Source: Trissonchulus latispiculum (Eukaryota; Nematoda; Enoplea; Enoplida; Ironidae). From it: a stretch of DNA of 64,000 bases. The stretch covers positions 1-64,000 of the forward strand of contig JASAND010020876.1 in the NCBI GenBank assembly GCA_030248195.1. Direction: 5' to 3'. Within the stretch, counting starts at the first letter, position 1, and each line of letters begins with the position of its first letter. Below the pieces are notes generated by a model, which worked only from the letters and a program-made list of their open reading frames with translations, ran no database searches and was not told the origin of the DNA. Positions 1 to 16,949 of this stretch are shown here, piece by piece. Made by a program: the position numbers and the translations under genes.

Positions 1-2345
1 ACGTCGGCAAGGGCATACAGCACCTGCTGCAAAGTTGGAAATACCGGAAATCCACGAAAACCCGACTGTCTGATGGTTTTCGGAGAAATCAGTCCAAAGG
101 TGTGGGCAAGGGTAGCCAAACCAAGATGTGTTTCCCGGAAGCATTCCCCTGCGACAATGTCCAATTGTTCCCAAGGTAACTCGGGCCACTCCGGAATTTG
201 ACGACGGCGGGCTGCTCTAAAGCCAATCGCTTGAGCCACCACCTCGCCCAGTTCAACAAATGAGCTTTCAAGTCCGACCAACCCACAGAATCGGGCCAGC
301 CGCAATAAGTCACAGACAGTCCCGGTAGTAACAAAATACACAGTCTCTGGGGGTTGAAGAATCATTTGCAGTAAATGCAAAACCGGATAATAGTCTGAGG
401 TAGAAGCCAAAATTTCACTGACCATAATTAGATAAACAGTGGGCTGAACTGATGGAATAGGGCCCACAAGTTGGATCATAGTTACAGTTGCTTCCTGGAA
501 ATTTCCAAATTGGGGATCAGACCCACCTTCCAGGTCGAAAGCAACCACGCCAGTTTCCCGGTACATGCGATAGATGTCAGGGATGGCAACCAACAGGGTC
601 ATCAGATTATTAACGACGACCACCGGGTTGAAGTTAGCGGGAACAGCTAAGCGCTCGTTGCTGAACCGCTGGTATTGACGGATAATATCCAGAGAGACGA
701 GACCTTCCGCCGCTGCACGGAGAGACTGGCGAAGATAGTCGTCCGTGACCGGGTCCAAATTTAAGCGTAACCGATCCGCCATATGTCGATGAAGCGATAA
801 CAACAAATTTCTGGCAGATTGGGCCTCGTCACGACGCTGAAGAGGGATCCGGTTAATTTCTTCTTCGGTGACAGACGGCCGGACGAGTCTCGCCGCTCGA
901 TCTTCTGGAGTACGGGCCTCAGAGGACTGCTGCTCGATCGATTCAGTTTCCAGACGTCGACGATGTAAAGAGTGGCACTGACTCGGAGACACGACCGGAA
1001 TTCGTTGCAAAATCCGGTCCATATCACCAGCCAGCCTCTGAGCGCCAGAGGATCCCTGTAAAGGGTTAGGACCAGGAACAACCGGGGTTCCCGCATCTTC
1101 TTCTGCCGCCGATTCTTCTGGTTGTTGGTTGTCTTCGGACGAAAATTGAATAGTTCCTTCAGATAGGGCAGCGTCTGAAGCAGGATTCCCAGCATCATTA
1201 CCACCGGATAGGACCAAATTACCAAAATCACCGGTGCCAGTCGGGACTGAGCCTAGGCCACGGCCACGACTCTGAAACCGCTTGGCCCCTAGTGATGATT
1301 TGGTCCTTTTCCGAGGTTTCCGAGCAGATGGTGCTTCCGAACGAACCTCCGAGTCAGTTGAACACGCCGCATCGTAACTACGGCTCCGTCTTTCCGTTTC
1401 TACGATGCGAGTAATCGCCTTTCGTGCCGCGTCCCGAAGGGGACGAGACGCTTCCGTCGACTCTGAAAGAGGCGTTGATAGCTGTGACACACGTGCTGCC
1501 GCTTGACGCTGCAGAGCACGAATTTGTGTCATTTGATGGGTGATCTGATCGAGTTCCTGTCGAGCCCGTAAAAGCGCTTCTTCATCCGTTGTCGACTTTT
1601 CTTCCGCAGGGGTTACCGCCGATGTACCCTGCGAAGGAAGGAAATGGGCCACGGAAGGAGTCGACGTCATCTTCCGAAGCTTTCCCAAAGCTGGGTTTCC
1701 GGGCGAACCAGCTAATTCGGTCCCGTCCGAAGTTGCCGCTGAACGTTTCTGTCGCAACTCCAAACTAGCAGTCCCTGATGACGTGAAAATAGTCCTTGAA
1801 TTGGAGGATCCAGCCGTCACCGGTGCTGGCAAGGATCCCTGACCAGTAACCAATCGACCAGATGGAGTGGTCAGGCTCCCCTGGTCTGGCTCAGTTCCGT
1901 CGTTGGCTGATAGTGTAAACCGTTCAGCCTCTAGAACTGCTCCAGCCGGAGAGATCGGGAGATCCATAGACATGGGTGAAACTCCCGGTGGCGGAGGTGT
2001 CGGAACTGGCTGCAACTGGGGTTGAAGATGCAGAGCAACACTCGGCGCCGTAGCTCTGGTGGTACTGGTCGCCGCGATGTAAATCGGGGCGCCAGCTAAA
2101 TAAGGCGAATCAGAAAACGTAGTCACGGAACTGGGACTGGAAAGGTTAGCCGGTCCGGCGAAAACACTCGCAACGGCCTCCGAGTGTCTTGATTGGAGCC
2201 CAAACGGCATAGAATGAGTCAATTCCTGATCCACAGTTAAGTGTCCACCGGTTGGCGGAAAAGAGAAGCGACTGTTCGGATCCTTCGGTGGTTGACCAGG
2301 CTGACTGGCTCCAGGTGGTTGTTCTTGCTTCCTGTTGTTTGACAT
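1..2345 (-). CDS. Intronless ORF with C-terminal DEDDy 3'-5' exonuclease-like domain, open at the window edge
   Basis: The minus strand reads without a stop from ATG at 2345 to position 1 (781 codons). An in-frame TAG lies about 14 codons upstream of the ATG, so the start is well bounded; the C-terminus lies outside the window. The first ~450 residues are rich in Pro, Ser, Thr, Gln and Glu, with a possible coiled coil near residues 250-285 and a basic patch (RKPRKRTK). From about residue 595 it resembles the EXD1/RNase D/WRN exonuclease fold. FDLEG places D604 and E606 as motif I, a VCDLL-like segment may hold motif II, and after PKTIRQSGFRG the edge motif YALAD (Y777, D781) fits the Tyr-x3-Asp motif III. 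The family removes 3' nucleotides using two metals; activity here is inference. Base composition is more GC-rich than the host introns. It could be a host gene or an ORF of a mobile element next to the Gypsy relic. No close relative is recognised. Confidence 0.72.
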   Translation of the reverse strand, partial: MSNNRKQEQPPGASQPGQPPKDPNSRFSFPPTGGHLTVDQELTHSMPFGLQSRHSEAVASVFAGPANLSSPSSVTTFSDSPYLAGAPIYIAATSTTRATAPSVALHLQPQLQPVPTPPPPGVSPMSMDLPISPAGAVLEAERFTLSANDGTEPDQGSLTTPSGRLVTGQGSLPAPVTAGSSNSRTIFTSSGTASLELRQKRSAATSDGTELAGSPGNPALGKLRKMTSTPSVAHFLPSQGTSAVTPAEEKSTTDEEALLRARQELDQITHQMTQIRALQRQAAARVSQLSTPLSESTEASRPLRDAARKAITRIVETERRSRSYDAACSTDSEVRSEAPSARKPRKRTKSSLGAKRFQSRGRGLGSVPTGTGDFGNLVLSGGNDAGNPASDAALSEGTIQFSSEDNQQPEESAAEEDAGTPVVPGPNPLQGSSGAQRLAGDMDRILQRIPVVSPSQCHSLHRRRLETESIEQQSSEARTPEDRAARLVRPSVTEEEINRIPLQRRDEAQSARNLLLSLHRHMADRLRLNLDPVTDDYLRQSLRAAAEGLVSLDIIRQYQRFSNERLAVPANFNPVVVVNNLMTLLVAIPDIYRMYRETGVVAFDLEGGSDPQFGNFQEATVTMIQLVGPIPSVQPTVYLIMVSEILASTSDYYPVLHLLQMILQPPETVYFVTTGTVCDLLRLARFCGLVGLESSFVELGEVVAQAIGFRAARRRQIPEWPELPWEQLDIVAGECFRETHLGLATLAHTFGLISPKTIRQSGFRGFPVFPTLQQVLYALAD

Positions 2346-3130
2346 GGCACGAAATGGCAAGTAATTGCCGCAATAAGGCACAGAGTAAGGCTAGTCCACT
2401 CAGGCTGAGCTGATAATATGCAGAAAGTTGAATCCAAATCAGAACTAGCAAACCACAATCACTAATCCTAGAAGATGCAGAAAAAAGTGTAGGTAACAAT
2501 CAGAAGTGCATAGTTTTATTCAGTAGAGTACATACATATATACGTAACAAGGTTATATGGGTGGGGGGTAATGAGAGAAAAGGAAATGGTATAGAGAGGG
2601 TGAGAAAAAATCCAAAATTTTGACCCACCCAACCTATAAAGTTTAAGAGGGGATAAAAGAAGAAAAAAAACCCAAATAACTTGTGCTGGAAAACGTTGAC
2701 TAGGTGACCAGCAATAGTCAGTTGCTGACGAGCTAAACAACACCATACATACGTATACAAGAGCCCCATGGGGTGACTAGTCCCACAGAGACCCACAACG
2801 CACACATAAGTATGTTTTACCCAGACAAGCACCTGCACACCAAGCGAGTGCAACAAACGTATATATGTACCTACCGTAGGCTCGCATTTAAATATCAACA
2901 AATAAAATGCAAGCCACGGTTGTACGTACAAAGCAGTTAACTGCTAAGAACAGAAGAAAACACGCACTTACGTGCCCAACAAAGAAGGACCTAACTGACC
3001 AAACACCAACACTTACGTGCCCGTTGGGTGTAAACCCGATCAAAACCTACTACCTGATGGATCATTTTTCTGCTTATGAAGATACCTTGACCTCGAGCTT
3101 CAAGGTGGCTTCAATTCTTCAATGTGGATT
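2346..3130. other. Upstream region of the exonuclease-like ORF, with perfect palindromes
   Basis: No coding sequence is supported here. It should hold the promoter and 5' leader of the minus-strand ORF that starts at 2345. Perfect 12-bp palindromes ttgtacgtacaa (about 2919-2930) and gcagttaactgc (about 2931-2942) sit side by side. The 13-mer cacttacgtgccc occurs twice (near 2965 and 3010), each time forming a short stem with loop TTAC. No clear TATA box was seen. Confidence 0.5.
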
Positions 3131-3319
3131 TTTTCTGCTTCCAATGAGAAACCAATTTTCCGGATATGGAAGTTGACTTCTTCTTCCGTGGAAATTCCTG
3201 GCATCAGCCTGAGGGGGTAACCCCTGTAACCATTTGCATGACCAGCCATACCTGACTGGGAATGGATCCAATTCCGTATCTTCCTGGTAGAAGACTCCAG
3301 GCATGCTTCAATCTACCAA

Positions 3320-3840
3320 CGTTGCCAAGTGCCGTCAACAACTTCAGCAGGAAACATGTCCCATGGTCCATTGCAGCATGAGAGTTGGCGCCACAAATCG
3401 TACTTCCATTGAAAGTCATTGGCGACCACTTCCACTGCTTCAAGGCACATGCCTCGGCACCGGGTGAAGAGATCCACGGTGGCCGATTGCAAGTACTACC
3501 ACAGTCGTGGAGTTCTTCGCGCATGGCCAGACGTCCGAATTGACCAGATATAGGGGACGATGCACTCGAAGTTCGTTCTAACCCAGTCTGTGGACGAACA
3601 GACCCAGGGTTGGATGTGGTACACGCATGTACAAAAGGTGAGAACCTGAGCCATAGTTGACCAGCGGTAACGTGAGGCCAGGCTCGCAGAGTCGGCCATA
3701 TGGTTGCGATGGTCACCAACCATAAGACCTAGACCAACCTCATCTAGGATCATCTCCCGATCAGCTTTCGGTATCGCAATGACCTTAGATGCGTACCTCG
3801 TCGACGACCCCGCTCGTCCGGTGCCGTCGGAGAAGTCCAT
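3320..3840 (-). pseudogene. Integrase zinc-binding domain and core fragment
   Basis: The minus frame from 3840 contains a degenerate HHCC zinc-binding region (residues near LGLMVGDHRNHMADS, then RYRWSTMAQ and a Cys-rich stretch). The rve core is continued in a different phase around 3500-3330. Several frame changes occur, so it is non-functional. This matches the 3' end of a Gypsy-type pol gene on the minus strand. Confidence 0.6.
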
Positions 3841-4128
3841 TTTGGATGAAGTGAAGGGTCCGGAGTTTCTTCAAGCAACCCGCTAATAGACCATCCTCCG
3901 GTAGAACATTCCGTTCTAGAAGGTCGAACAGCAGCTGAAAATCGGGGCAGCCATTGCTCACGTTTCCAGGTAGGGGGTGCTACCAGATCGGTGATGGAGG
4001 TGCAATGGGCAGGGGGTACATAGTGCCGCCAGATCTATTTTTCAGGGCCAGTCCGGATCCAGCGCCGAAAAGATCAGCAACCACCATCCAGCCAAGCGGA
4101 AATCGAGCCCAAACGACTCCAGCTCCTT

Positions 4129-4633
4129 TCAGATCGGTGACCGTGTTTTTCTTTTAGAAGAAATTAACCCTGGCCGGCGTAAGCCGCTGTTTATGGTTCC
4201 ACGCGGTCGGTCGCGCCGGTTTTCTTCTTTCTTCATGGCATCGATGCCAGCTTCAAAACTCGGTCTCTTCAACCACCGATCCTTCTTCAGAAGATTCATT
4301 AGATGGCCGCTATTTTGGCATATTCCGCCGCAAAAATGACGATCGTAGCAACCAAGTCCTAGAAACGTTTTTACGCCTTTGATATCCGTCGGAGGGGAGC
4401 AGCTTCGCCACGGCTGCACACTTGACTCCACCGAGATGCCCTCCAGACCGCCGATATGCCCTATACGAAGGGACTTTCTCCCGGAAAATGTGCTTCTCCG
4501 GTTTGATCCGCAGCCCGTTGTCGCGAAAGTTATGGAACAACATGCGGAACATCAGCAGATGCTCCGACATGAGCGGTAACGGGAAGAGAACATCATCAGG
4601 ATAGACGGGTAAGCCCGTCAGGATCTTCTTCAT
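4129..4633 (-). pseudogene. Reverse transcriptase (palm, thumb, connection) fragment
   Basis: The minus frame from 4633 carries VYPDDVLF, a variant of the Y-x-D-D catalytic box, followed by SEHLLMFRMLFHNFRDNGLR and IKPEKHIF. This is the usual Gypsy-type order after the active site. A second frame from 4431 continues with DIKGVKTFLGLGCYDRHF and LMNLLKKD, the thumb/connection part. The two frames overlap but differ in phase, so at least one frameshift separates them. The first hairpin upstream (4604-4619) lies just before the catalytic box. Confidence 0.72.
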
Positions 4634-7600
4634 GATGCGCTGCGAAGCCGAGCCACTAGCTCAGAACCGTCCTAATTGCTGACGAGGATGCAAGGAGACG
4701 GACGAGCCTTGAGTGATTGATCGCAAAGGAGTGAACTTGCTTCTAGACTTCTACCTAATGTCGCAGAGCTCAAGGAGTAAGTCCTTGAAGCGGTTCTTCA
4801 TTTCTTCATGCGCATCAGCTATAACGAAATCCATGTTTGTCTCAAAATCCCGTACCGTTTCTTCGTGGATCGGACCTAGACGTGGCGTAAGGACGTCCGC
4901 CGAATTCCCAACGAAGTGTTGATCCAGGTCGTCTTCTTCACGAACAACAGTGTCAGTGCCGAATGGGCTGCTTTGGATCACAGAACGGTGTAGTAGTTGG
5001 CGAACCTCATGGCGAATGACTTGGTGAACCGGGTGTACGGACCAAACTTTGATCTCATCTGTCTGTGTCTTCCGGGACTGATCCAAAGGATAAGTTTAGT
5101 ACTCTTCCGCGTGAGTTCACTCATCCAACTGGTGTGGTCCCCTGGCCGGGCAGAAACGAGCCAGGTCTCCAAAACACCAGATGAGAAAGTGAGGACTGAC
5201 AGGAAATCCATTTCCGGTCTCCATCACCATCAACGTCGGACGGTCTTCTCTCCTTCCTGCCGAACGGGAGTCGCTCCACCCATTCCCTGGTACCTTGGGT
5301 GAGGTCAACACGTGGTCTTCCACCATTGTATACGCGGATATACAAGACCATGGGGTTTATCCAAAAATGCTAGCGAAAAGGTAATCCCGTTGACTACCGA
5401 CTATCCCGTTATAGACCTACGTCGGCCAAGTAGGAGGATGTTGCAACCAATGGGCCAAAGACCGTCGGGCTGCCTTGCGGCCGACAGCCTTAGACGTACT
5501 GTTCCTGCTCCGGGAAAAAGGTGCACCGGATCCCAGACGCATCGGGAACCGTTGGCCGTAACCGCGCCCGGTTGAAAGCATCCATCGATTACCACCAGAC
5601 GCTTCGTTGTACCCCAGCGTGGGTGGATCGAGACAACCAAGTCAGCACGAGAGTCCTTGACTACTCCTGCTGGAGGTTCGGAACCACCAAAAGGCTGTGC
5701 ATCGGGTTCCAATTTATTAGACACAGGTCAGTTGGCACTGACAAAGAATCGTCAGGGAGTTGCCTCCACCGGCGGCCAGAAATAAGCGGCATGGCGAACC
5801 TAATTGGTAGAGCACGATGAAGTTCATCGCATTCCAATAGATGATCCTCACATCCGTGATGCAGAGGTTCCAATATCCACCGACGTTAACGCTATGACAG
5901 AGTCTGCGCGAACCAGCACGTAAGGTGCTTTTCTTCAGGTGTGAACGTTACTCGACGGAGGCTGTAAAGCCAACAAGACCGCCTCCGGAATCGCTTCGCA
6001 TTCCGGTGTATGGTCAGCCCAATGCACCGATGTAACTTCCATTTGACGCGTAGTTGTTCGTTAAAACGTCAGTCCTTCCATTCAATACTCGATCTGAGCG
6101 CCAACGAGACAGTCCCAATATGCTAGCATCATATCAACTGCCAGGTCGCCCCAGTCCATAAAATAGGGTTGACCCTCGTCAACAGTTCGGATGCTGAAGG
6201 GATGGTGGGGTCATCAAAATATCAAGAGATCCCCATTGTCTCTGATCCGAACGACGTAAGGTCGATTTCGAGATTGAATCTTGAGGACGAAAGGCTTCCT
6301 GGTTCGCAGATGTTGCTTTGCCTGTAAAGGCTCGCTGACAGCTCTTCGTCATCGGGCGGTCCCCAGGGCTCGTGTCACGAGGCCGGGGCTGGCCAGACTT
6401 CGTGACACTAGCCTCACTGAGGTCCACCGGAAGATTCTTCTTAAGCGTCTGTTGGAGCGGCGGGCATTCGGGAGGTTTGAACCCCAATCGAGTTCGTCGA
6501 TCACCGTTTGATGGTTGCTAGCGTTAAACGTGGCGGTATGATCCACTGCGGTTGAAAGGATCAATTTCTGATCGTCAGGACGACCAGTGGGTTCCCATCC
6601 GTAATTCGGCCATTTGCCGGTCGATGTTGGTGGTTCCTTCATTCTTGCCCTGACCAAGCTGGTCCCATTTGAAAGAACCACCAGATATTGGCGTTCCCGA
6701 CGAAACAAAAACCCAGGCAGCAAATTCATGCTTCTGAGTTTTTTACTGTCCTGCGTCGGCTCCGGTAATCGTCGCCACGTAAACCGCGACCTGATATCAT
6801 AAATAATGTTCAGCACCATAACAGGCAAAAGTTCATCATGGACAGAAGAAAATCCATCACCAGATGTACGTGTGGGGCATCACCGGGACGACAGAGGTGT
6901 AAACCTCGTCGGTAGGATGGCATGGACAGCTGGGGGGAACACGAAGGCGGTTCCGCGCCCCTTTTGATTCAGTTCCATGATGTTCACCGGAGGAATAAAG
7001 TCCATTAAAGTCCAATAAAAGGAAACCACCGACCTCATACCCTTCCGTCTGCCCCGACGATGACCACCACCAAGGCGGCCACCAGCGGTGCCCAAAAAAA
7101 AATGAAGCCTGATAGTCCTGGTCCAAAACCCGAACGTAATGGTGGCTGAACCAGCAGTTGACAAATAGTCACGGTTACGGCAAACGAATTACCTCCGTTT
7201 TGATGGGCGGGGTTCGTTGTACCCGAGGTAATTACAGTCTGTTCGTTGACATACCAGCAAATGATGGGACATCTGTTGAAACGGTGGGTATAGAAACGAA
7301 AACCCACCGTTGGGTTTGATGACAGGGGGTGCCCGACCGGCCGGTTGCAGTATACCCATCCATTGGCCACCGAAATCTGATGGGTCCCATGAAGACGGGG
7401 GCCACCCACAGATGCCAGTTCAATTAATTGTTCGATTCGGCACCGCGGAGACCGGAAAAAATGTCCAGGTCCAAAACCGATATCCCACCGGTTGGAGGGA
7501 CTAACCACAGGAAATAGGTAATATGACCCTAGTCATGGGCCAGATCGTTCACCACCAGGTTTGAGTTGGAATCGGCCAGAGGCATTCCACATCACCCCCG

Positions 7601-8129
7601 AGCAAGCTGAGCTGACCAGACCGGGTAACCGGTCCACTTCTAATTCCAGATGTGATGGATCAACCATATCTGCCGGACTTCCAGGTGGTGGCTCATCGGC
7701 TTGCACGTGGGCTGTAAAGCCAGTGCCGATTTCTTCTGATCCAGCTGGTGAACCAGGCCAATCCAGATGTTCTGTTTTCCTGCAGTTTCCGATCAACCGA
7801 GGCCGAATGGGCCAATGCAGAACTGGTCGGTAACGACCCTGATCATAGGTGACCGCTGGAGTCACCTGGTGATTTGAGGATCTACACCAGGCCAAAATGA
7901 CGCGTAGACAGGCAACCCATGCAGCTTTGGGTCAAACACCCGTGGGCTTTGCCTTCGTAGTACGACTGTAGGCGAATGGCCTTTTCCTGCAGCTTCAAGG
8001 ACGTACTGTGCTTCTTCCTGCTTCACTCACCAATCACTTCTTCTGAGGATCCAAATTGTGATATTTTCGTCCAACAAATATCAGAATCGGCAATCCCGAC
8101 TGTTGGTGAACCATGGTGGAGGTAACTCC

Positions 8130-9573
8130 AACAGATATTCAGAAAAAACCAAAATCTGAAATTATTGACAAAAACATACGGTTGTTTGTACGTACGTACC
8201 CCAAAATTGTTAAGAAAAATACCCTATACTGGTGAAAAATAACAAAATTGAGTGGCATACTGTATGAGATAGAAAAGAACCTAGTGTGCCTGAAAGAGAA
8301 AATAGAATTAGGGCACAGTACATAATTGAGAAAGTTACAGTTAAAACAAGTAAGAAAAACAAGTAAAAAATTATTAAAGTGAACCTATAATTTTTATTGT
8401 TAGCCTAACTCAAATCCCCAAAAATGTCCCTAAATCCTATCTCAGTTTGGTGGCCCCACTAAGTCACGTATACCATTCACACAATTATATGTACATACGT
8501 ACTGCACAAACACACCACAGCCTAAGAAAAAATGTGTACTAAGGTGAAAACATACGTATAGCCGTAAGGCTGGTGGTGATAAACAGGACCCAGAGAAAAA
8601 TCGATGAGTTGTACGTAGATAGGTAAGCAGGAAAAGACCAAGTAATTGGTCTATAGCAGAAAAAGACCAAGTAATTGGTCTGTAGGCAGCTGGAAATAGC
8701 ATCAAAGGCAGGAGATCAGGATAAGTTCGCGTAAGCGAATGGAAATTTTACCTGTAAAGGTAAATTCTTCACCAGACAGGAAAAAAAATCCAAAAACTTA
8801 CACGATTGAAAAATAGGGAGAAGACCAGCTTCGACCAGTTTTCACCCTGGCAGACTAATGTAGCGCAGCCGGTGTAAACCGTTCCAATTCGGGATTCGTA
8901 GACCAACTGGCTACCCGACAAGTAATTGTCGGGGGCGCTGCCACACAATAGATAACGCGCCTGGCCGTCAGGAACCAGGCAGGGGAAGCCTCGCCAAATG
9001 TTGTAGTTGTTGATCCAACCCACCTAAGCTAACCAGCTAAACCTATCTGCCAATATAACAAGACAAATACTTTAATGAACAGTACGTACATACAGTGGGC
9101 GTAAGCCCTGACAGGCAGTCAAACCCAGTTATACAATACATAAGAACAAACATACAAACATACCTGTACAGCTACCCATTATGGGGAGAGTAGGTGATAA
9201 CAGAAGGGACCCACCAAAACAGGTAAGCTGTTATAAGGGCGAACCCAGAGAGCCCTTAGAGAACACCACTCTGTAAATAGAAAAGTAGACGACTGATGTG
9301 TTTGAGAGGTTTGAAGGGAGACCCCCAAGTAGGCGGGGCTTAGGGAGACATACAGCGCCGCCTATACACCAGCCAGCGAATGGCTGACAAACACCTATGA
9401 CAATTACAATCAATACAAGGCAGGTAAGCTGCCAAAGAAAGCAGAAATCAGACACGGAAGTAAATACATAAACATAACACAAAGGGGGTAATTTGCATAT
9501 ATTACTCCTAACACTACAGTAACGTACAGAACTTCTCTTTAGATTTAAGTCTCTACCTCAAGAAGTGGATACT
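8130..9573. other. Non-coding stretch between the Gypsy relic and the first channel gene
   Basis: No ORF of interest is supported. The stretch holds ten of the GTAA-loop hairpins, many gtacgtac-type tracts, a 6-bp stem at about 8957 (gcctgg/ccaggc) and a stem with a GCGAA loop at 9371-9385. The promoter and 5'UTR of the channel gene starting at 9574 must lie at its right end, but no TATA box is evident. Confidence 0.45.
8635..8681 (+). repeat. Tandem duplicate of one 7-bp-stem GTAA hairpin
   Basis: The 18-base hairpin agaccaaGTAAttggtct occurs twice, at 8635-8652 and 8664-8681. The two copies are separated by 11 bases, and the bases just before each copy (gcag plus an A-rich run) also repeat. 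This is a direct duplication of a unit of about 29 bp. Confidence 0.85.
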
Positions 9574-12559
9574 ATGAAATTATTATACTCGCTTTTTATA
9601 CTCAATTATTGGATTTTCGATACATTATTGGTCAACGGCCAAGAATGTGAATCAGGCAACTGTTGCCCTGAATTGGATCAGTTATTATCGCTGGCAGGGA
9701 ATAATCAATTCAGTCTGCCTCCAACAGCACCAACCGATGTTAGAGTAAAAATTATACTAGAAAAAATTAAGACTATATCTGAAGAAAAGGGTGGAGCTGA
9801 AGTGTGCCTCTACGCGCAAGGGTCCTGGTTCGATCAACGCCTGCTGAAAAATTTTACAAAAATTAGTAACTGTCCTGCAACTAGCGTGACTGGAAAGTTG
9901 AATGAAATGAAGAAAATATGGACGCCGAAATTTTTCTTCCCCTCTGTACACCAGATTACCCTCGAGCACAGTCCATATCCTAACATTGACCTGAAGCTTG
10001 AAACGAATGGACAGCTCACGTATCATGCCAAATATTGCCTTCTTACACCATGTTTTATGGATTTACGGTGAGTAGAAGAAAGAGTTAATTGTCCGTGTAC
10101 GAAGGGGACATTTGATTTTCAAATGCAGATAGGCAGCAAAAATCAAGCAATTATGTTGATTTTTGCATTAATTTCTGCATAAAAATCAAATACATAGCTG
10201 TTCTGAGTTTGATTTTCCATGCGCATCAGCTTCAAAATGCAAAAATCAAACTGCTTTCTGATTGGCTAGAGTCGCGCCTGTTGTGATTGGCAGGTTAAAA
10301 TCACGAGACCTACTGTGCAAAGAAGATTTGGGTACCCGAAGATCTAAGGCGTGGCGTGCACAAAATAGTGCTGGAAAGTCGAAACGATATTGGAAATAAA
10401 TACATAATAACAATAGCGAAGACAACGTATAGAGACTATTTTGCAAAATTTTTATAAAATAATACTACTAGTAAAATTTCCAAACTAAGCTAATTCGTTA
10501 AATTGGTTTAGTGGGTTTCTTTTAACTTGGCTATATTGCAGTTGCAGTGCAGACCAAATCTCAAACCAAATGAAAAAATTTATTATATATCTGAACAGTT
10601 TTTGGGCCTTTCAAATTAATCCCCCCCACAGCTCCGTAGAAGTTGAAATTTGGTGGAGGTAGGTTTTCGGACCTGCTGATTTCAAAAATGCAAAAATTTT
10701 AAAATTTAAAACAATTTTTAAAAATTTAATAGTTTTAGTTTGGTAAGGGGGAACCAAGGGGAACCGAAAAATTTTTTGAAAAAAGTTTTGTTGAAAACTT
10801 GCGTACAGGGGTTTTCTAGGGTGCCGGTCACGAATTTTTCGGTGCCGATCAGTTTTCGATTCCGCTTTTCGTTAGCTTAATATTAGCTAAAGTTTTAAGC
10901 TTACGATTTCAGATTCGTGATCAGCACCCCAGAAAACCCCTGTACGAAAATTTTCAGCAAAATTTGTTTCAAAAGATTTTTCGGTTCCCCTTGCTGTCCA
11001 TTCTTACCAATCTAAAGTTTTTAAAATTTTTTTAAAATTTTAAAATTTTTGCATTTTTGAAATTAGCAGGTCCGAAAACCTACCTCCACCAAATTTCAAC
11101 ACAATCAGTCAAATTGAGCTTCTTCGGTACTTTATCAGAGCTATGGGGGGATAATCCCCCACAGCTCCGAAGAAGTACAGAAGAAGCACAATTTACCCTA
11201 CGGAAACAGAGTATAAAAAAGATAAGTAAGGAAATTAGGGAGAGGGACGCAGGGACGCAGACAAAAAACTATGATTAACCATAAACTAAATAACTTAACT
11301 TCAGATCTTAATGCGAAAGAAGAAGATTAAGCAATAAATTTCCAGAAGAAATTCCTAGTTTAACCACATTCCTGCAAATTTTTTAAAAAAGTTTTAATCC
11401 TGGGGTGCGAAAAAGTTTGTCACTTCTGTTGCTGAAAAGCTGTATATAGGGGTTTTCAGGGTCGTAGAACACGAATCTAAAGTCCGTTTACAGGAACAGG
11501 AACAGTGGTCTGCTTTTATGGAAAGGAACGGAAGCCTAATTTTAGGAATATGTAGGAGTAGAAATGGGGATCCAAAAATCGGAACAGGAAGCAGAGACAC
11601 TTTTCAGGAACCGGTAGGAAATTTATTTTCAGGACCAGGATCCAAAACAGTTTCCAGGACCAACAGAGTTTACTTTTAGCAACAGGAACAGGAGTCTAAC
11701 TTCAAACAGGAATCTATTTTAAAGACATAAATTGCACCTTAAAGTATATTTGAGCTTGCGGGTTGTCGGTCAATGTATAAAATATCCGCATATGTTCCTG
11801 TTCTTGTCCCTGAAATCATATTCCTTCTGTTCCTGTTCCAGGTATTAGACGCCACCTTAGAATATCTAACATTTTGGAATGTCATCAAGAAAACATGATT
11901 TTATTTGCTTTAATTTTCAAAAAATCTATTGCATTATTTGCTTGCAACACATGTTTATGATTGTTTCAGAGTATACTTCGCACTAAGAAAATTAGCGATA
12001 AAATATAAATACCCAATAAAATAAAAACATTGTCGTTTTAATTTAGGTTTCCACGTGAGCGGGGCAAAAATTTTGAGGTATCTTGCGGGATTCACTTGTT
12101 TGCGGGCCGCGGGCCGGGGCGGGTAGCAATAATCCGGCCAGTGACCAACTCTGTTTCAACTTATACCTTGATCCGTAGAAAAGATACCGACCTCTTCCGT
12201 TCCTGTTCCTGATATTATGTGCACCCGTTCCTGATTCTATTCTTAAAATTAGACAACGGTTCCTGATTCTGTTCCTGAAATTAGACCCCTGCTCAGTTCC
12301 TAAGTTTAGACCACGGTTCCTGTGTCTTTTCCAAGTTTAGACACCACCAATTTAGAAGGCCACCACGTCCACGGACAGCAGCCCCGTTCCCATATTTACA
12401 ACAGTTTTTCTAACATTTTATAAATAAGCAAAATAAAATTTAGAACTGATTAATCATAGCATTTTGTCTGCTTCCTTCCTCCTAATTTCTTTACTTTCCT
12501 TACTTATTTTTTACTTACTCTGTTTCCTTTTAAGTAATTAATTAATTAATTAATTACAA

Positions 12560-12636
<77 letters not shown>

Positions 12637-15168
12637 GTTATTCCATATTCAATTATTGAAAGAAACTAAAAAATATTGACGACTGAGAGAAATCCATATA
12701 TATATTTAAATTATTTAAAATTTTATAAGATGCAGTGTTCCAAAATTAAAAATGTGTCCTCAAAAGTACCAATTCTATGTTTGTCTTAATTGGATAAGGT
12801 TTGCAGTAATCCAAACTTGAAACTTAAAAAACTGTTTAGATATATAGTTAGTTTTTTATCATTGGTTCGGGATTCGATCTGCATTGCAACTCTAGCAGCG
12901 CCAAGTCAAAAGAAAGCCACAAAAAATTAACGATTGGCTTAGTTAGGAAATTTTGCACACTATGACCATTTAATAATAATTTTGCAAAATTATTTCTATA
13001 TATTGTATACGGTATTGTTATGTAGTTATTTCCAATATAGTTTCGACTTTCCAGCACTATTTTGTGAACGAAACGCCTTAAATATTCTTTGCACAGTAGG
13101 TCACGTGATTTAAACCTGCCAATCACAACAGGAGCGCCTCTAGCCAATCAGAAAGCAGTTTGATTTTTGCATTTTAAAACTGATGCGCAAAATGGAATGA
13201 AGGAAAATGATGGAAAATCAAACTCAGAACACCTGTGTATTTGATTTTTATGCAGACATAAATGCAAAAATAAACATAATTGTTTGATTTTTGCTGCTTA
13301 GCTGCATTTAAAAATCAAATGTCCCCTTCGTACACGGACAGTTAATGCTATTTCAAGTATCAGTCAATTATGAAGTCATTAAACTTGCAATAGTCACTTC
13401 GATTTTTACATGTCCAACATTCTATTAACATATTTATTGACATTGTAGTTCAATTAGGAACTGGGAACAGTTAAAAGAATTTTAGATCTACTGCATTAAA
13501 ATCCTTTATTTTGTCTTACAGTGTGTTAAAGCCATATTTTCCTAATTTAGAGACTTTCCAATGGATAAAGCCGATTGCACAATTGCCCTGTATGATCTTA
13601 GTAAGGATGCTCGTAAGGTTAGATACAATTGGACAGAGCAAGATCCTTTAGAAAAGATTTGGCCAATTAAAACTGCTCAACACTTCCTCTTGTACAACAG
13701 AACTATTGCAGTTAGAACGGTAATGCTGACAAATGTTCTTCATTTAAATAAGATAAGTAAGTATAAAAAACTCCTAAAATTTAAATAAGATAAATTTAAA
13801 TCGGGGATGGGTTTGTTGTAACCGCCATTGATGTCAGATTTCTGCTTCGTATATCCTACTTTACTTTGCATTACATTACATTGCATTACGTTATGATAAC
13901 TTTTCATTTACTGAACAACACCACAATATTCCAGGACAACTCGACAGTTCCTACATCAATATTGTATCTGAAGTTGGTATTCAAGCGTCTGGAAGGATGG
14001 TATCTTCTCCAGGCTTACACTCCGTCATATCTAATAGTCTTGATTTCCTGGCTTTACAACATTATGGGATTGGAAACTAGGGCTTCGAGGCTTCAGCTCC
14101 GAGCAGCCCTTCTAATGGCACTCATGCTATTGTTTTCCAATATCTACCGGCAAATCCCAAAAGTCGGCTACATCAAAGCGTTGGATATTTGGCTGCTTAT
14201 TGTGTTAAGTAAGCTTCTCTGTAATGTTAAGGTTGCTTTGCTTTCACAATGACAATTCTCGGTCATTGCAAGAGCTGGAAAGTATAAACCATTTGATATT
14301 TTGTTACAGCTGGGCACTATCGATAAGACATCTCTTACCTCATTGCATTGACAATTAATTAAATTAGTTAAGTAGGTAGTACATAGTTTGGCTTTTTGAT
14401 TTTGGGCTCTTAATTTTTGCTTTCAGTCATAACGTTGGAGAGCATAACTTTAGGTTTCCTTATACTCAGCTGCATAGAAGACACCTTAGTGACCTATCTC
14501 TGCAATAAGCCGGACAGGTTGGCCGAGAAGATTTCTTTCCAAAAAGCGCTAGAAACCGAGCCATCCACTAATAATGGTAGGTTTGCATGCAACATTAAGA
14601 GTAAAAAACAATTCTTTCCGCTAACGCTGGTAAATGGTAAGATAATTCACGAAGTAGTGGACTTGCCTCTGTGCTGGCTATCCTAAGAACCATACCATAA
14701 CAGTGACTGTCAAACCTACTGTTAATACATAGATTTGTTATATGCTTCAACTTTTAGCTTATAAAGTGTTAGGAAGGAGTTTGTTCACGACATGGCTGTA
14801 CAGTAATATTATGTCACATCCTACAGTCAACTGACACTGTAAGGCTTCATTGCGCCACAAGTTCCATTTTCCAGTTCTTCATTGTTCTTCAAACATATCA
14901 ATCCTGAGGAAGTATTCTTTTATATTATACTATTTCAGAGAAGCACAAAGGATCTATTAGACTCTTCAGTTGTGTTCTCAGCCGCCGTCAGAAACATAAA
15001 TGTCGTAAAGGTGTGAGAAATGCGTCCAGAACTGCCGGTACGACCCCACCACTGCCCACAGTATCATGCTATGAACGACTAGCAGCACGAATTGACTATA
15101 TCTTTACATTCATTTATCCTTTCTTGTTTCTATGTGCTAATGTGGGATATTGGGCCCATTATCTGTGA
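9574..15168 (+). CDS. Cys-loop ligand-gated ion channel subunit, gene A (five exons)
   Basis: Exons 9574-10067, 13551-13719, 13935-14208, 14454-14576 and 14939-15168 join in phase to 429 aa. The first ATG precedes a hydrophobic signal peptide (LLYSLFILNYWIF). The ligand-binding domain carries the Cys-loop C160-C174 with the FPMD signature. M1 (about 243-263, WYLLQAYTPSYL), M2 (272-290), M3 (306-326) and a C-terminal M4 follow, with a short basic M3-M4 loop. Overall it is closest to the anion-type GlyR/GluCl/GABA branch (IPKVGYIKALD before M3). The usual Pro-Ala-Arg at the M2 start is Ala-Ser-Arg, and Arg277 and Met282 stand at 4' and 9'. No second loop-C disulfide is seen. The subunit would form a pentameric plasma-membrane channel; its ligand is unknown. 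Exon 2's donor (gtaatg) is chosen because it gives the family-typical spacing from Trp to M1. A close paralogue lies at 21246. Confidence 0.85.
10618..11160. repeat. Nested palindromic (foldback) element
   Basis: Two inverted arms of about 230 bp meet near 10870-10890. The left arm, from about 10618, contains ggtaggttttcggacctgct and gtacaggggttttctagggt. The right arm ends near 11100 with the inverse of the first block, then 11140-11172 repeats the cccccacagctccg start. A related half-unit (gaaaagctgtatataggggt) occurs at about 11430. Confidence 0.7.
12560..12636. repeat. (TTA)n microsatellite
   Basis: About 25 uninterrupted TTA units, preceded by a short TTAA tract. It lies within the long inverted-repeat element in intron 1 of channel gene A. 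Confidence 0.97.
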
Positions 15169-15317: not shown

Positions 15318-16949
15318 CATCCATCTGATCAGGCATGTTCTCGCTGATCTTGGGAAGGGCAATCGCTGCAGGAAACCGGAGCTTTTTCGGTTTTTGTACC
15401 CAAAAAGTACTGGGCGACCACTTTCAGATTGAGTTCCTTCCGTCGGGGCCACATGTGTGTACCGACTACTGATGTGCATTTTCAAATAAAAACAAGAAAA
15501 ACTACAATAGCAAACTATTTAATGTTTGATGCAGCCCTGCCTTAATATTTCAAATATATGCTTTTTCCATTCCATTTTCGTTCCATTAAAGCCACTCAAC
15601 CTTCATCTTATTCATAAAAACTGATGTAGTTCTAATCTGCTAAACGCAGCCAGAAGCCCCATAGCATGCCAACAAATGAAAAAGTTGAACAAAAGCCTTG
15701 CTCCTGTTTTCTCTGTAATAACTTATAAGCTAACCTAATCAAAGGCCCACCCACCAGGAACTGAAAAAACGGAAATTCACATGATTGAGTTTTTGTGAAC
15801 TCCCCCCACTTTAGGGGCTATTAAAGTAAAAAGTAAATGTTGCGGAACCTTGGTGTAAACCAATGTGCAGAAAGACTAAAGACTGTGACATTGTTATTCT
15901 ATTTTTCTAAATTTTTCTAAACGGTTTTTGTCTAAAACATTTCATTGTTAACTAAATCTTTAATAAAATAGATTCATATAGGTTGTATTTTTAAATCTGA
16001 AAGTTCCGTGACATTGCGTAACAGGCTGTGGAATTTTCGAATAACTAAGACTGATGGAATACCTAAATGTTTTCAGTCCCTGAAGCAACGTTTTATCCAA
16101 TTTGGTGTAACATTCTTGGCTGAGCTTGCACAAGCCGACAACTTTTATCTTTTATCGTCCTTTTCGGACATCTCCAATTCTCATCTTTAAATGGTTTCTT
16201 TTAAATTTTAATTACTTTTATTTTTGTTTATTACTATCTATGGAAATGGAGCATAGATTCTCGTTACCCAATGCATACATTAGCACGGGTTCCGATTCTC
16301 TGGGATCTAATTACTCCGATTTCATGTTTCCAAAATCTAAAGGGAATCTAGCCGATAACCAGCCAAAATTGCACATTAAAATGTAAAACCTAAGCTACAT
16401 ACATGCGTAGATATGTAGCTCGTAATGGTAAAACTTACAGTATACGAAGTATATATATAGTGTTCTGGAAAACAAGAACAAATTTAAAGCCTGTCACTGA
16501 AAATGGGACAGCTTCTGATGTTTTCACTTCTTAGATTATCGGATTAATATCTGTTTTAATCAGTTACTCTTGATTTATTGCGCAGCCAGCAAACAGCTAA
16601 TAAATTGGAGAGTGAAAGGCGCCTCCTCGAAAGTTATGAAACTTCTTTCTTTGGAGGACGAACCTTAGAAATAAATTTTTCTGGAAAACTGATACATGCT
16701 AATTTTGCATTCCTAATTCCGTGAGACTTTGTAGGTAATAACCTGCTCTGACCCACGCTCCCTTAAAGTCAACGTAATAAACTTTCAAGGTGTAAACGTG
16801 GTCTGCATACGTAATGTGCTTTATTGCCACATCCTTGTCTCAACATTCTAAGCAGTTAAGAAGTTAAAAAGAAGAACACTGGCGTCAAGAAGCTATCATA
16901 ATGGTGATTGATGGTGATAAAGGTAATGATGGCAATATCATAGTTCCAG
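15169..16949. other. 3' flank of channel gene A and intergenic region
   Basis: The 3' flank includes a (TTA)n run at 15250-15317 and an AATAAA at about 15485-15490 that could end the transcript. One isolated GTAA-loop hairpin with a 5-bp stem (ttggt/accaa) occurs at 15850-15863. No further coding sequence is supported; the small ATG frames near 16.0-16.4 kb show no domain. Confidence 0.5.
15250..15317. repeat. (TTA)n microsatellite in the 3' flank of channel gene A
   Basis: About 22 uninterrupted TTA units some 80 bp after the stop codon, probably inside the 3'UTR. Confidence 0.95.

Follow-up and report, generated by a model that had tools for sequence, protein, structure and literature searches.

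In a 64,000-nucleotide stretch of the nematode Trissonchulus latispiculum (assembly GCA_030248195.1, contig JASAND010020876.1, positions 1 to 64,000 of the forward strand; hereafter the window), we found a long terminal repeat (LTR) retrotransposon that carries an array of short hairpins with a constant loop, read as GTAA or GTAAG on the plus strand. The element lies on the minus strand at 3–9518, with its 5′ end at 9518, and runs off the contig start at position 1. It begins with a 660-bp 5′ LTR (8859–9518, minus strand; TGTAGTG...GCTACA), followed by a long leader with a decayed Ty3/gypsy pol (2346–8858, minus strand) and by the N-terminal 781 amino acids of an open reading frame (ORF), ORF3 (3–2345, minus strand; ATG at 2345), which reaches 2300–2500 amino acids in many relatives. 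The hairpins are real, occur far above chance and are conserved between copies, and a sister family in the same genome uses a different constant loop.

To characterize the carrier, we searched the genome (733.8 Mb, 21,732 contigs) with one 601-base piece, which gave at least 40 matches (window included) at 93–100% identity. From these 40, 20 copies besides the window were fetched at length; pieces of up to 100 nt are not shown in the copy comparison. Homology to the window stopped at 9518–9523 in all 20 copies, and the flanks beyond the element differed among copies, except for the duplicated pair of locus L026 and two 3′ LTRs sharing the element's interior. The inner edge of the 5′ LTR was the junction CTGGCAGACTAA/TGTAGC in the 20 fetched copies (8859 in the window). 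The LTR termini are TGTAG...CTACA, i.e., TG...CA ends, and the 3′ LTRs of L013, L027, and L031 were preceded by the polypurine tract GGGGAGA (sense). The TGTAGTG end, the constant inner edge, and the polypurine tract identify the carrier as a minus-strand LTR retrotransposon with a 660-bp LTR. The C12656 copy, with both LTRs, spans ~10.7 kb, and its two LTRs are 97.9% identical. A 4-bp target site duplication was seen in one of the three copies with both LTRs (ATGG in L013; none in L027 and C12656). Directly after the LTR (sense), at the position of a primer-binding site, lies TTAGTCTGCCAG, to which no tRNA was matched.

Coding in the 6.5-kb leader has decayed: the longest ORF spanned 357 amino acids, counting the window copy and all 20 that were fetched, among them partial copies. 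It still holds degenerate pieces of a gypsy reverse transcriptase (RT), seen as Pfam RVT_1 matches below the cut-off and also by eye. In sister families, pol is found at the same place. Its domain order is RT, RNase H, H2C2, and rve integrase: the span from the end of RT to integrase was recognised in L072 and that from RNase H to integrase in L071 and L073, and inspection of L073 by eye showed RT motifs. The pol frame of these three copies spans 674–864 amino acids, is uninterrupted where read, and lies directly upstream of ORF3, as an ORF separate from it. This pol explains the decayed leader of the window element.

ORF3 was uninterrupted in some copies of the element. A genome search with part of it gave 690 candidates, of which the 100 scored ranged from 100% down to 38% identity (intermediate families at 59–71%), many of them within open frames of 2300–2500 amino acids. 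ORF3 was open in those families whose pol is open; the same held for the contig of L070, where the part read held no long pol frame. Against Pfam, ORF3 gave no match of weight and no RNA-binding domain was recognised; no homologue reached an E-value of 0.001 among 7992 and 7996 candidates scored, and no solved structure was found for one 266-amino-acid part. Motifs resembling those of DEDD exonucleases (FDLEGG, YALAD) were seen in ORF3 by eye only, in a region where the AlphaFold model has a mean predicted local distance difference test (pLDDT) score of 31.

For the hairpins, we scanned the window and counted perfect stems with arms of 4 bp or more around each loop; all coordinates are window positions. 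An earlier note, made from the letters of the window, had described about 23 constant-loop stems within 2964–9433, far above chance. Our recount agreed, giving 18 GTAA and five GTAAG stems. Between 2300 and 9500 there were 41 perfect stems with a 4-nt loop, of which 19 enclosed GTAA, with five more around GTAAG. Every other tetramer gave at most two stems, and the opposite orientation, TTAC, gave one against 19. In 100 first-order Markov sequences modelled on 2300–9500, the mean number of GTAA stems was 0.17 and the maximum for any single 4-nt loop was three. In sliding 4-kb stretches with loops of 3–6 nt, GTAA reached up to 13 different arms; the best other loop was TTT, with six, in AT-rich sequence.

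Some details of that description had to be changed. The stem at 2964–2975 has TTAC as its loop, and the array does not start there, since further stems at 365, 1054, 1407, 2075, and 2356 extend it to the left end of the window. Besides the two stems previously reported elsewhere (1054–1065 and 15850–15863), we thus count 365, 1407, 2075, and 2356 within the element; outside it, two 4-bp stems at 12530 and 49479 add to the one at 15850. The share of GTAA words sitting inside GTAA or GTAAG stems, given before as more than half, was about half (24 of 49 in 2300–9500).

The array spans the LTR, the leader, ORF3, and the 3′ internal part. Within ORF3 are tttgca-GTAAA-tgcaaa (365–381; the loop is GTAAG in L012 and L029), ccct-GTAA-aggg (1054–1065), gcga-GTAA-tcgc (1407–1418, kept in L070), and cgat-GTAA-atcg (2075–2086), and directly upstream of its ATG is ggcaa-GTAA-ttgcc (2356–2369). 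The leader continues with gggt-GTAA-accc (3026–3037), agggg-GTAA-cccct (3212–3225), cggc-GTAA-gccg (4175–4186), tcaagga-GTAAG-tccttga (4770–4788), agcac-GTAAG-gtgct (5915–5929), ggct-GTAA-agcc (5960–5971), cgac-GTAAG-gtcg (6252–6264), gcct-GTAA-aggc (6320–6331), gaggt-GTAA-acctc (6894–6907), gaccgg-GTAA-ccggtc (7619–7634), ggct-GTAA-agcc again (7710–7721), ggtcg-GTAA-cgacc (7825–7838), tggag-GTAA-ctcca (8117–8130), agcc-GTAA-ggct (8560–8571), agaccaa-GTAA-ttggtct twice (8635–8652 and 8664–8681), ttcgc-GTAA-gcgaa (8726–8739), and tttacct-GTAA-aggtaaa (8747–8764). The LTR holds cggt-GTAA-accg (8870–8881), cccgacaa-GTAA-ttgtcggg (8914–8933), gggc-GTAA-gccc (9097–9108), aacag-GTAAG-ctgtt (9218–9232), and ggcag-GTAAG-ctgcc (9419–9433). 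A dispersed DNA repeat was rejected because the arms are mostly unrelated; the exceptions are the 8635 and 8664 hairpins, which form a 29-nt tandem duplicate, and those at 5960 and 7710, which have a common arm. No Rfam family matched the window at its gathering score.

The LTR had 7.6 stems per kb and the leader next to it 7.2, against 1.7–2.9 elsewhere. One copy, both LTRs counted, carries 37 constant-loop stems. In the ORF3 frame of the window, taken from the stop preceding its ATG, there were four GTAA stems against a mean of 0.135 in 1000 synonymous-codon shuffles.

Two further observations concern the content of the array. Three stems with the 5-nt loop GAATG (7801, 7970, and 9374) were perfect in 21/21, 19/21, and 21/23 aligned rows, respectively; they are weaker than the GTAA set and perhaps represent a second loop type. 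Besides, the window copy lacks a piece of ~110–130 bp at 4252–4254 that is carried by 10 of the 16 fetched copies covering the place. This piece contains a GTAAG hairpin (L012 3605), found in nine of the 20 copies.

We compared the hairpins between copies in 23 rows, from 20 loci plus the window, with second partial copies in L013, L026, and L027 as separate rows; aligned pieces under ~150 nt were left out, and diversity omits columns with fewer than eight rows. In 3038–9518, hairpin arms had a nucleotide diversity of 0.0124 and loops one of 0.0167, compared with 0.0418 at other sites. Arms and loops together gave 0.0136, compared with 0.0405 for random placements, and none of 1000 placements was as low. 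In the leader, with no long ORF left, the values for arms, loops, and other sites were 0.0087, 0.0032, and 0.0396, respectively. Because the hairpins persist where protein coding has decayed, selection on the RNA can be told apart from selection on the protein. The effect was weaker in the LTR (arms 0.0249, loops 0.0603, elsewhere 0.0628). There, all 21 aligned rows agreed over the whole 8914 hairpin and 10 nt on either side of it; the 9419 loop was GGAAG in at least eight of 23 rows. As a control leaving out the window row, arms of stems with other loops had diversities of 0.029–0.036 against 0.013 for GTAA stems; of 441 row-by-hairpin cases, 420 had a perfect GTAA stem, whereas other-loop stems stayed perfect in 75–81%.

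The hairpins also persisted beyond this set. For the 3′ internal part, 46 matches were found and 38 stretches fetched, used with C12656 as 39 copies (two rows do not fully cover it). Three further hairpins lie there, with cores of 7, 6, and 6 bp plus loop that were exact in 29, 29, and 33 of the 39 copies within variable flanks; in the second and third, the outermost pair is often unformed. In L070, whose aligned blocks are 72–86% identical to the window, all five window hairpins in the covered span were retained (the counterpart of the 2356 hairpin was matched by its place before ORF3). Only two differences were found in 64 hairpin positions, and both fall in one pair, A-T in the window and C-G in L070: in relatives, the 2075 hairpin reads cgct-GTAA-agcg, a compensatory change at 2077/2084. 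A further paired change of the arms was seen at L070 1856, where, however, the window has TTAA as its loop. Altogether, selection on the hairpins is well supported.

The earlier note had suggested aligning genomic copies for the absence of loop plus one arm, expected from insertion, or for paired changes in both arms. Besides the compensatory pair, this alignment was informative at 9218. Among the 23 rows, L014, L015, and L019 lack the stem by substitutions, in alleles of equal length, and the loop is altered in L017, L018, and L024.

Sister families provide a second line of evidence. In family C21568 (L073 and L074), with an ORF3 ~40% identical to that of the window, no 4-nt GTAA stem was found in 7.7 kb, and L074 has one GTAAA stem. 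Instead, L073 carries six ATGA stems with six different arms, and L074, a further 3.5 kb of the same element, adds five more of 4–8 bp within an uninterrupted frame of 1167 codons. These 11 stems compare with a null mean of 0.125, and none of 200 Markov sets reached 11 for any 4-nt loop. In synonymous-codon shuffles (n = 1000), ATGA stems also exceeded expectation in two ORF3 pieces (5 observed vs. 0.083 and 3 vs. 0.023) and in the pol piece (2 vs. 0.092; 4 of 1000 shuffles reach 2). We rejected the reading of GTAAG as a splice donor, because the loop of the sister family is ATGA.

ATGA hairpins of 4 and 6 bp lie inside ungapped codons of the sister pol. The L073 hairpin TGGTCG-TCAT-CGACCA (sense) falls within the codons of the integrase core LVVIDHF, which align ungapped to the other two families, with nearly the same residues and no stem. 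Some ORF3 hairpins fall in poorly conserved, gapped stretches and are uninformative on a scar origin.

The constant-loop property is not universal among the sequence read. Family C14184 (L072 and L081) displayed six TGT triloops, a number that none of 200 Markov sets reached, and five CGA triloops, reached by 4 of 200. This excess is suggestive only, and C14184, a third family, may use a TGT loop. All six TGT stems are closed by an A-T pair. Family C7041 (L071) had no constant loop in the 4.2 kb read.

Taking these results together, we propose with a probability of about 0.5 that these are dispersed protein-binding hairpins with a family-specific loop, most likely recruiting the element RNA to its own Gag/ORF3 particle. 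Since the ORFs are on the minus strand, the genomic RNA would carry UUAC, not GUAA, in its loops, and that of the sister family UCAU. The hairpins would thus be cis-acting recognition marks spread along the retrotransposon, each a short stem of arbitrary sequence presenting the constant loop. A candidate protein would read the loop and need the stem only as a scaffold, and many weak sites per RNA could together bring about strong and selective binding. Selection by a loop-reading protein would be expected to leave a constant loop on arbitrary stems. Different loops in sister families of one genome point to a reader evolving with the element, and the simplest candidate would be the element-encoded Gag/ORF3 protein, diverging along with its RNA. 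Its most likely task would be to single out its own RNA for packaging into virus-like particles. The sense loops UUAC and UCAU may resemble each other in that both can be written UYAY; UCAY in loops is what KH-domain proteins such as Nova read.

On location, Ty1 cis-acting packaging sequences are described near the RNA 5′ end (PMC4974528). Copies L013 and L027 are short, internally deleted derivatives that retain the LTR and the adjoining leader. Together with the density peak in the LTR and leader, this favours multi-site packaging or recruitment signals.

Several results weigh against this proposal. G-U pairs showed no strand preference in a wobble test (kept by 14 distinct variants in sense and 11 in antisense; 42:33 in control stems), and G-U tolerance was not above that of controls (25 of 43 non-Watson-Crick events vs. 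75 of 112); for the 3′ set of this test, rows L047, L066, and L069 and gapped rows were left out. Local folding slightly favoured the antisense strand (mean stem pairing 0.597 vs. 0.525), and control stems leaned the same way (0.407 vs. 0.304). Conservation was less clear for loops than for arms: LTR loops were nearly as diverse as other LTR sites (0.0603 vs. 0.0628), and with the window left out the constant loops had 0.0173 vs. 0.0232 for other 4-nt loops. The 2077/2084 change is the only compensatory pair in an intact shared hairpin, besides the case of L070 1856. In the sister family, two ATGA hairpins checked in six diverged copies (six short stretches from 43 matches) showed only roughly twofold conservation (differences at 4 of 168 positions inside the hairpins and at 108 of 2172 outside). 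Two families lack a clear constant loop where read: L071, and L072 with L081, where only the TGT and CGA triloops were found. Finally, ORF3 lacks a recognisable RNA-binding domain, and no CCHC motif was found in L071–L074 and L081, where the Gag region of the sister families lies outside the sequence read.

The alternative that survives best, although we consider it unlikely, keeps the same RNA hairpins and gives them another reader or task: a host or element protein would use them in nuclear export, localisation, control of translation, or stability of the RNA and not in packaging. Conservation and loop specificity do not tell which step is served, and hairpins are also found in ORF3 and in the 3′ internal part, far from a classical 5′ packaging region. 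However, the loop differs between sister families in one host, unlike the prediction for a single host reader. The clustering in LTR and leader fits packaging, though export or translation elements could lie there too.

An action as DNA seems improbable. In first-strand cDNA or cruciforms, the hairpins could be, for example, pause or strand-transfer points of reverse transcription. GNNA is a very stable type of DNA loop, to which the GTAA of the first-strand cDNA conforms; loop orientation is constant relative to the cDNA, and the G-U tolerance at control level would also agree. However, the sister loop ATGA is not GNNA on the cDNA strand, nor is TCAT on the other, and there is no obvious need for ~30 sites with a family-specific loop.

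One option of the earlier note was RNA stem-loops with GNRA (GUAA) tetraloops in a plus-strand transcript, a possible protein-binding array. The array part of this idea is supported by the conservation, the compensatory change, and the second constant-loop family; the GNRA and plus-strand part is not, and a GNRA reading of the loops seems doubtful. GUAA fits GNRA on the plus strand, where folding is slightly better, but the ORFs are on the minus strand, and in the sister family neither ATGA nor its sense form UCAU matches GNRA. In ORF sense the loops are UUAC here and TCAT in the sister, so that a GNRA loop throughout the clade was not found on the functional strand. That the loops act as GUAA tetraloops of antisense RNA, docked to RNA receptors or to a protein, is very improbable; no Rfam family reached its gathering score in the window either.

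Last, the hairpins could be functionless scars, the other option of the earlier note, left by mutation through template switching or palindrome correction at GTAA, or through an inserted loop with an inverted arm. This can be dismissed almost entirely: the mostly unrelated arms are what local copying would give, and the L012 3605 hairpin shows that presence/absence of a segment exists, though not of loop-plus-arm size, but the stemless 9218 alleles have equal length, ATGA hairpins sit in ungapped pol codons, integrase core included, and GTAA hairpins are more conserved than their surroundings.

Returning to packaging by an element-encoded loop reader, a broader version is somewhat more tentative than the proposal for this element: a clade-wide self-identification code, in which arbitrary stems would present a family-private loop (UUAC, UCAU, perhaps ACA) to a co-diverging element-encoded protein. 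If true, the loop code would permit selective sorting and mobilisation of pol-less families among many relatives, and RNA-protein co-evolution could be read directly from sequence.

The stems of dispersed viral packaging signals vary. Dispersed stem-loop packaging signals have already been reported for some RNA viruses and hepatitis B virus (HBV), with HBV stem-loops sharing the loop motif RGAG (PMC7612645) and dispersed signals in satellite tobacco necrosis virus (PMC3593212) and along the enterovirus E genome (PMC7793301). Like these, the element has multiple sites along its genome, and the shared loop motif of HBV is the layout of its array. It thus presents two features of dispersed packaging signals, namely stem-loops with a shared loop and variable stems, and sites conserved between variants. 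Unlike the viral signals, the putative ones described here belong to an LTR retrotransposon; their stems are perfect, and their loop, strictly constant, changes from one sister family to another.

The way in which LTR retroelements select their own RNA in the cell is poorly defined. For Ty elements, packaging sequences are described as not clearly defined, and scattered sites outside the main regions probably contribute (PMC4974528). Ty1 and Ty3 are also LTR retrotransposons with cis-acting sites near the ends, and the part of that source consulted names no constant-loop hairpin array among their packaging sequences, in contrast to the 37 stems counted here in one copy with both LTRs. The planarian Burro elements resemble ours in their gypsy-type pol, large extra coding capacity, and animal host; however, they exceed 30 kb and encode one giant polyprotein (PMC6431247), while this element is ~10.7 kb with ORF3 separate after pol. 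No hairpin array is mentioned for Burro in the excerpt consulted (PMC6431247). In the limited library searched, we found no report of a constant-loop hairpin array in an LTR element, which does not prove its absence. If the hairpins are packaging sites, they are readable by eye, countable, and comparable between sister families with different loops, and both the recognition protein and its shift in specificity can be tested directly.

Large retrotransposon derivatives (LARD) are non-autonomous LTR elements. Terminal-repeat retrotransposons in miniature (TRIM) are described as non-autonomous LTR elements as well (PMC6934838). The element shares with both a decayed pol and many similar copies, presumably mobilised in trans. 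Unlike them, it retains the large ORF3.

Modular exchange between subfamilies was also suggested by the copies. In L010–L012, L016–L023, L025, and L028, leader and LTR are ~90–96% identical to the window, while the start of ORF3 is only ~75% identical. At L026 (C4830), two copies lie ~4.4 kb apart in the same orientation.

Beyond the element, next to the LTR end, the first part of a Cys-loop ligand-gated channel lies on the plus strand at 9523–10068 (Pfam Neur_chan_LBD, 1.2e-11); no homologue at an E-value of 0.001 was found among 55 candidates scored. Just outside the element, nested inverted repeats ~3 kb apart occupy 10085–13345, including one of 136 nt at 93% and one of 110 nt at 94%, and are perhaps a fold-back or terminal inverted repeat element.

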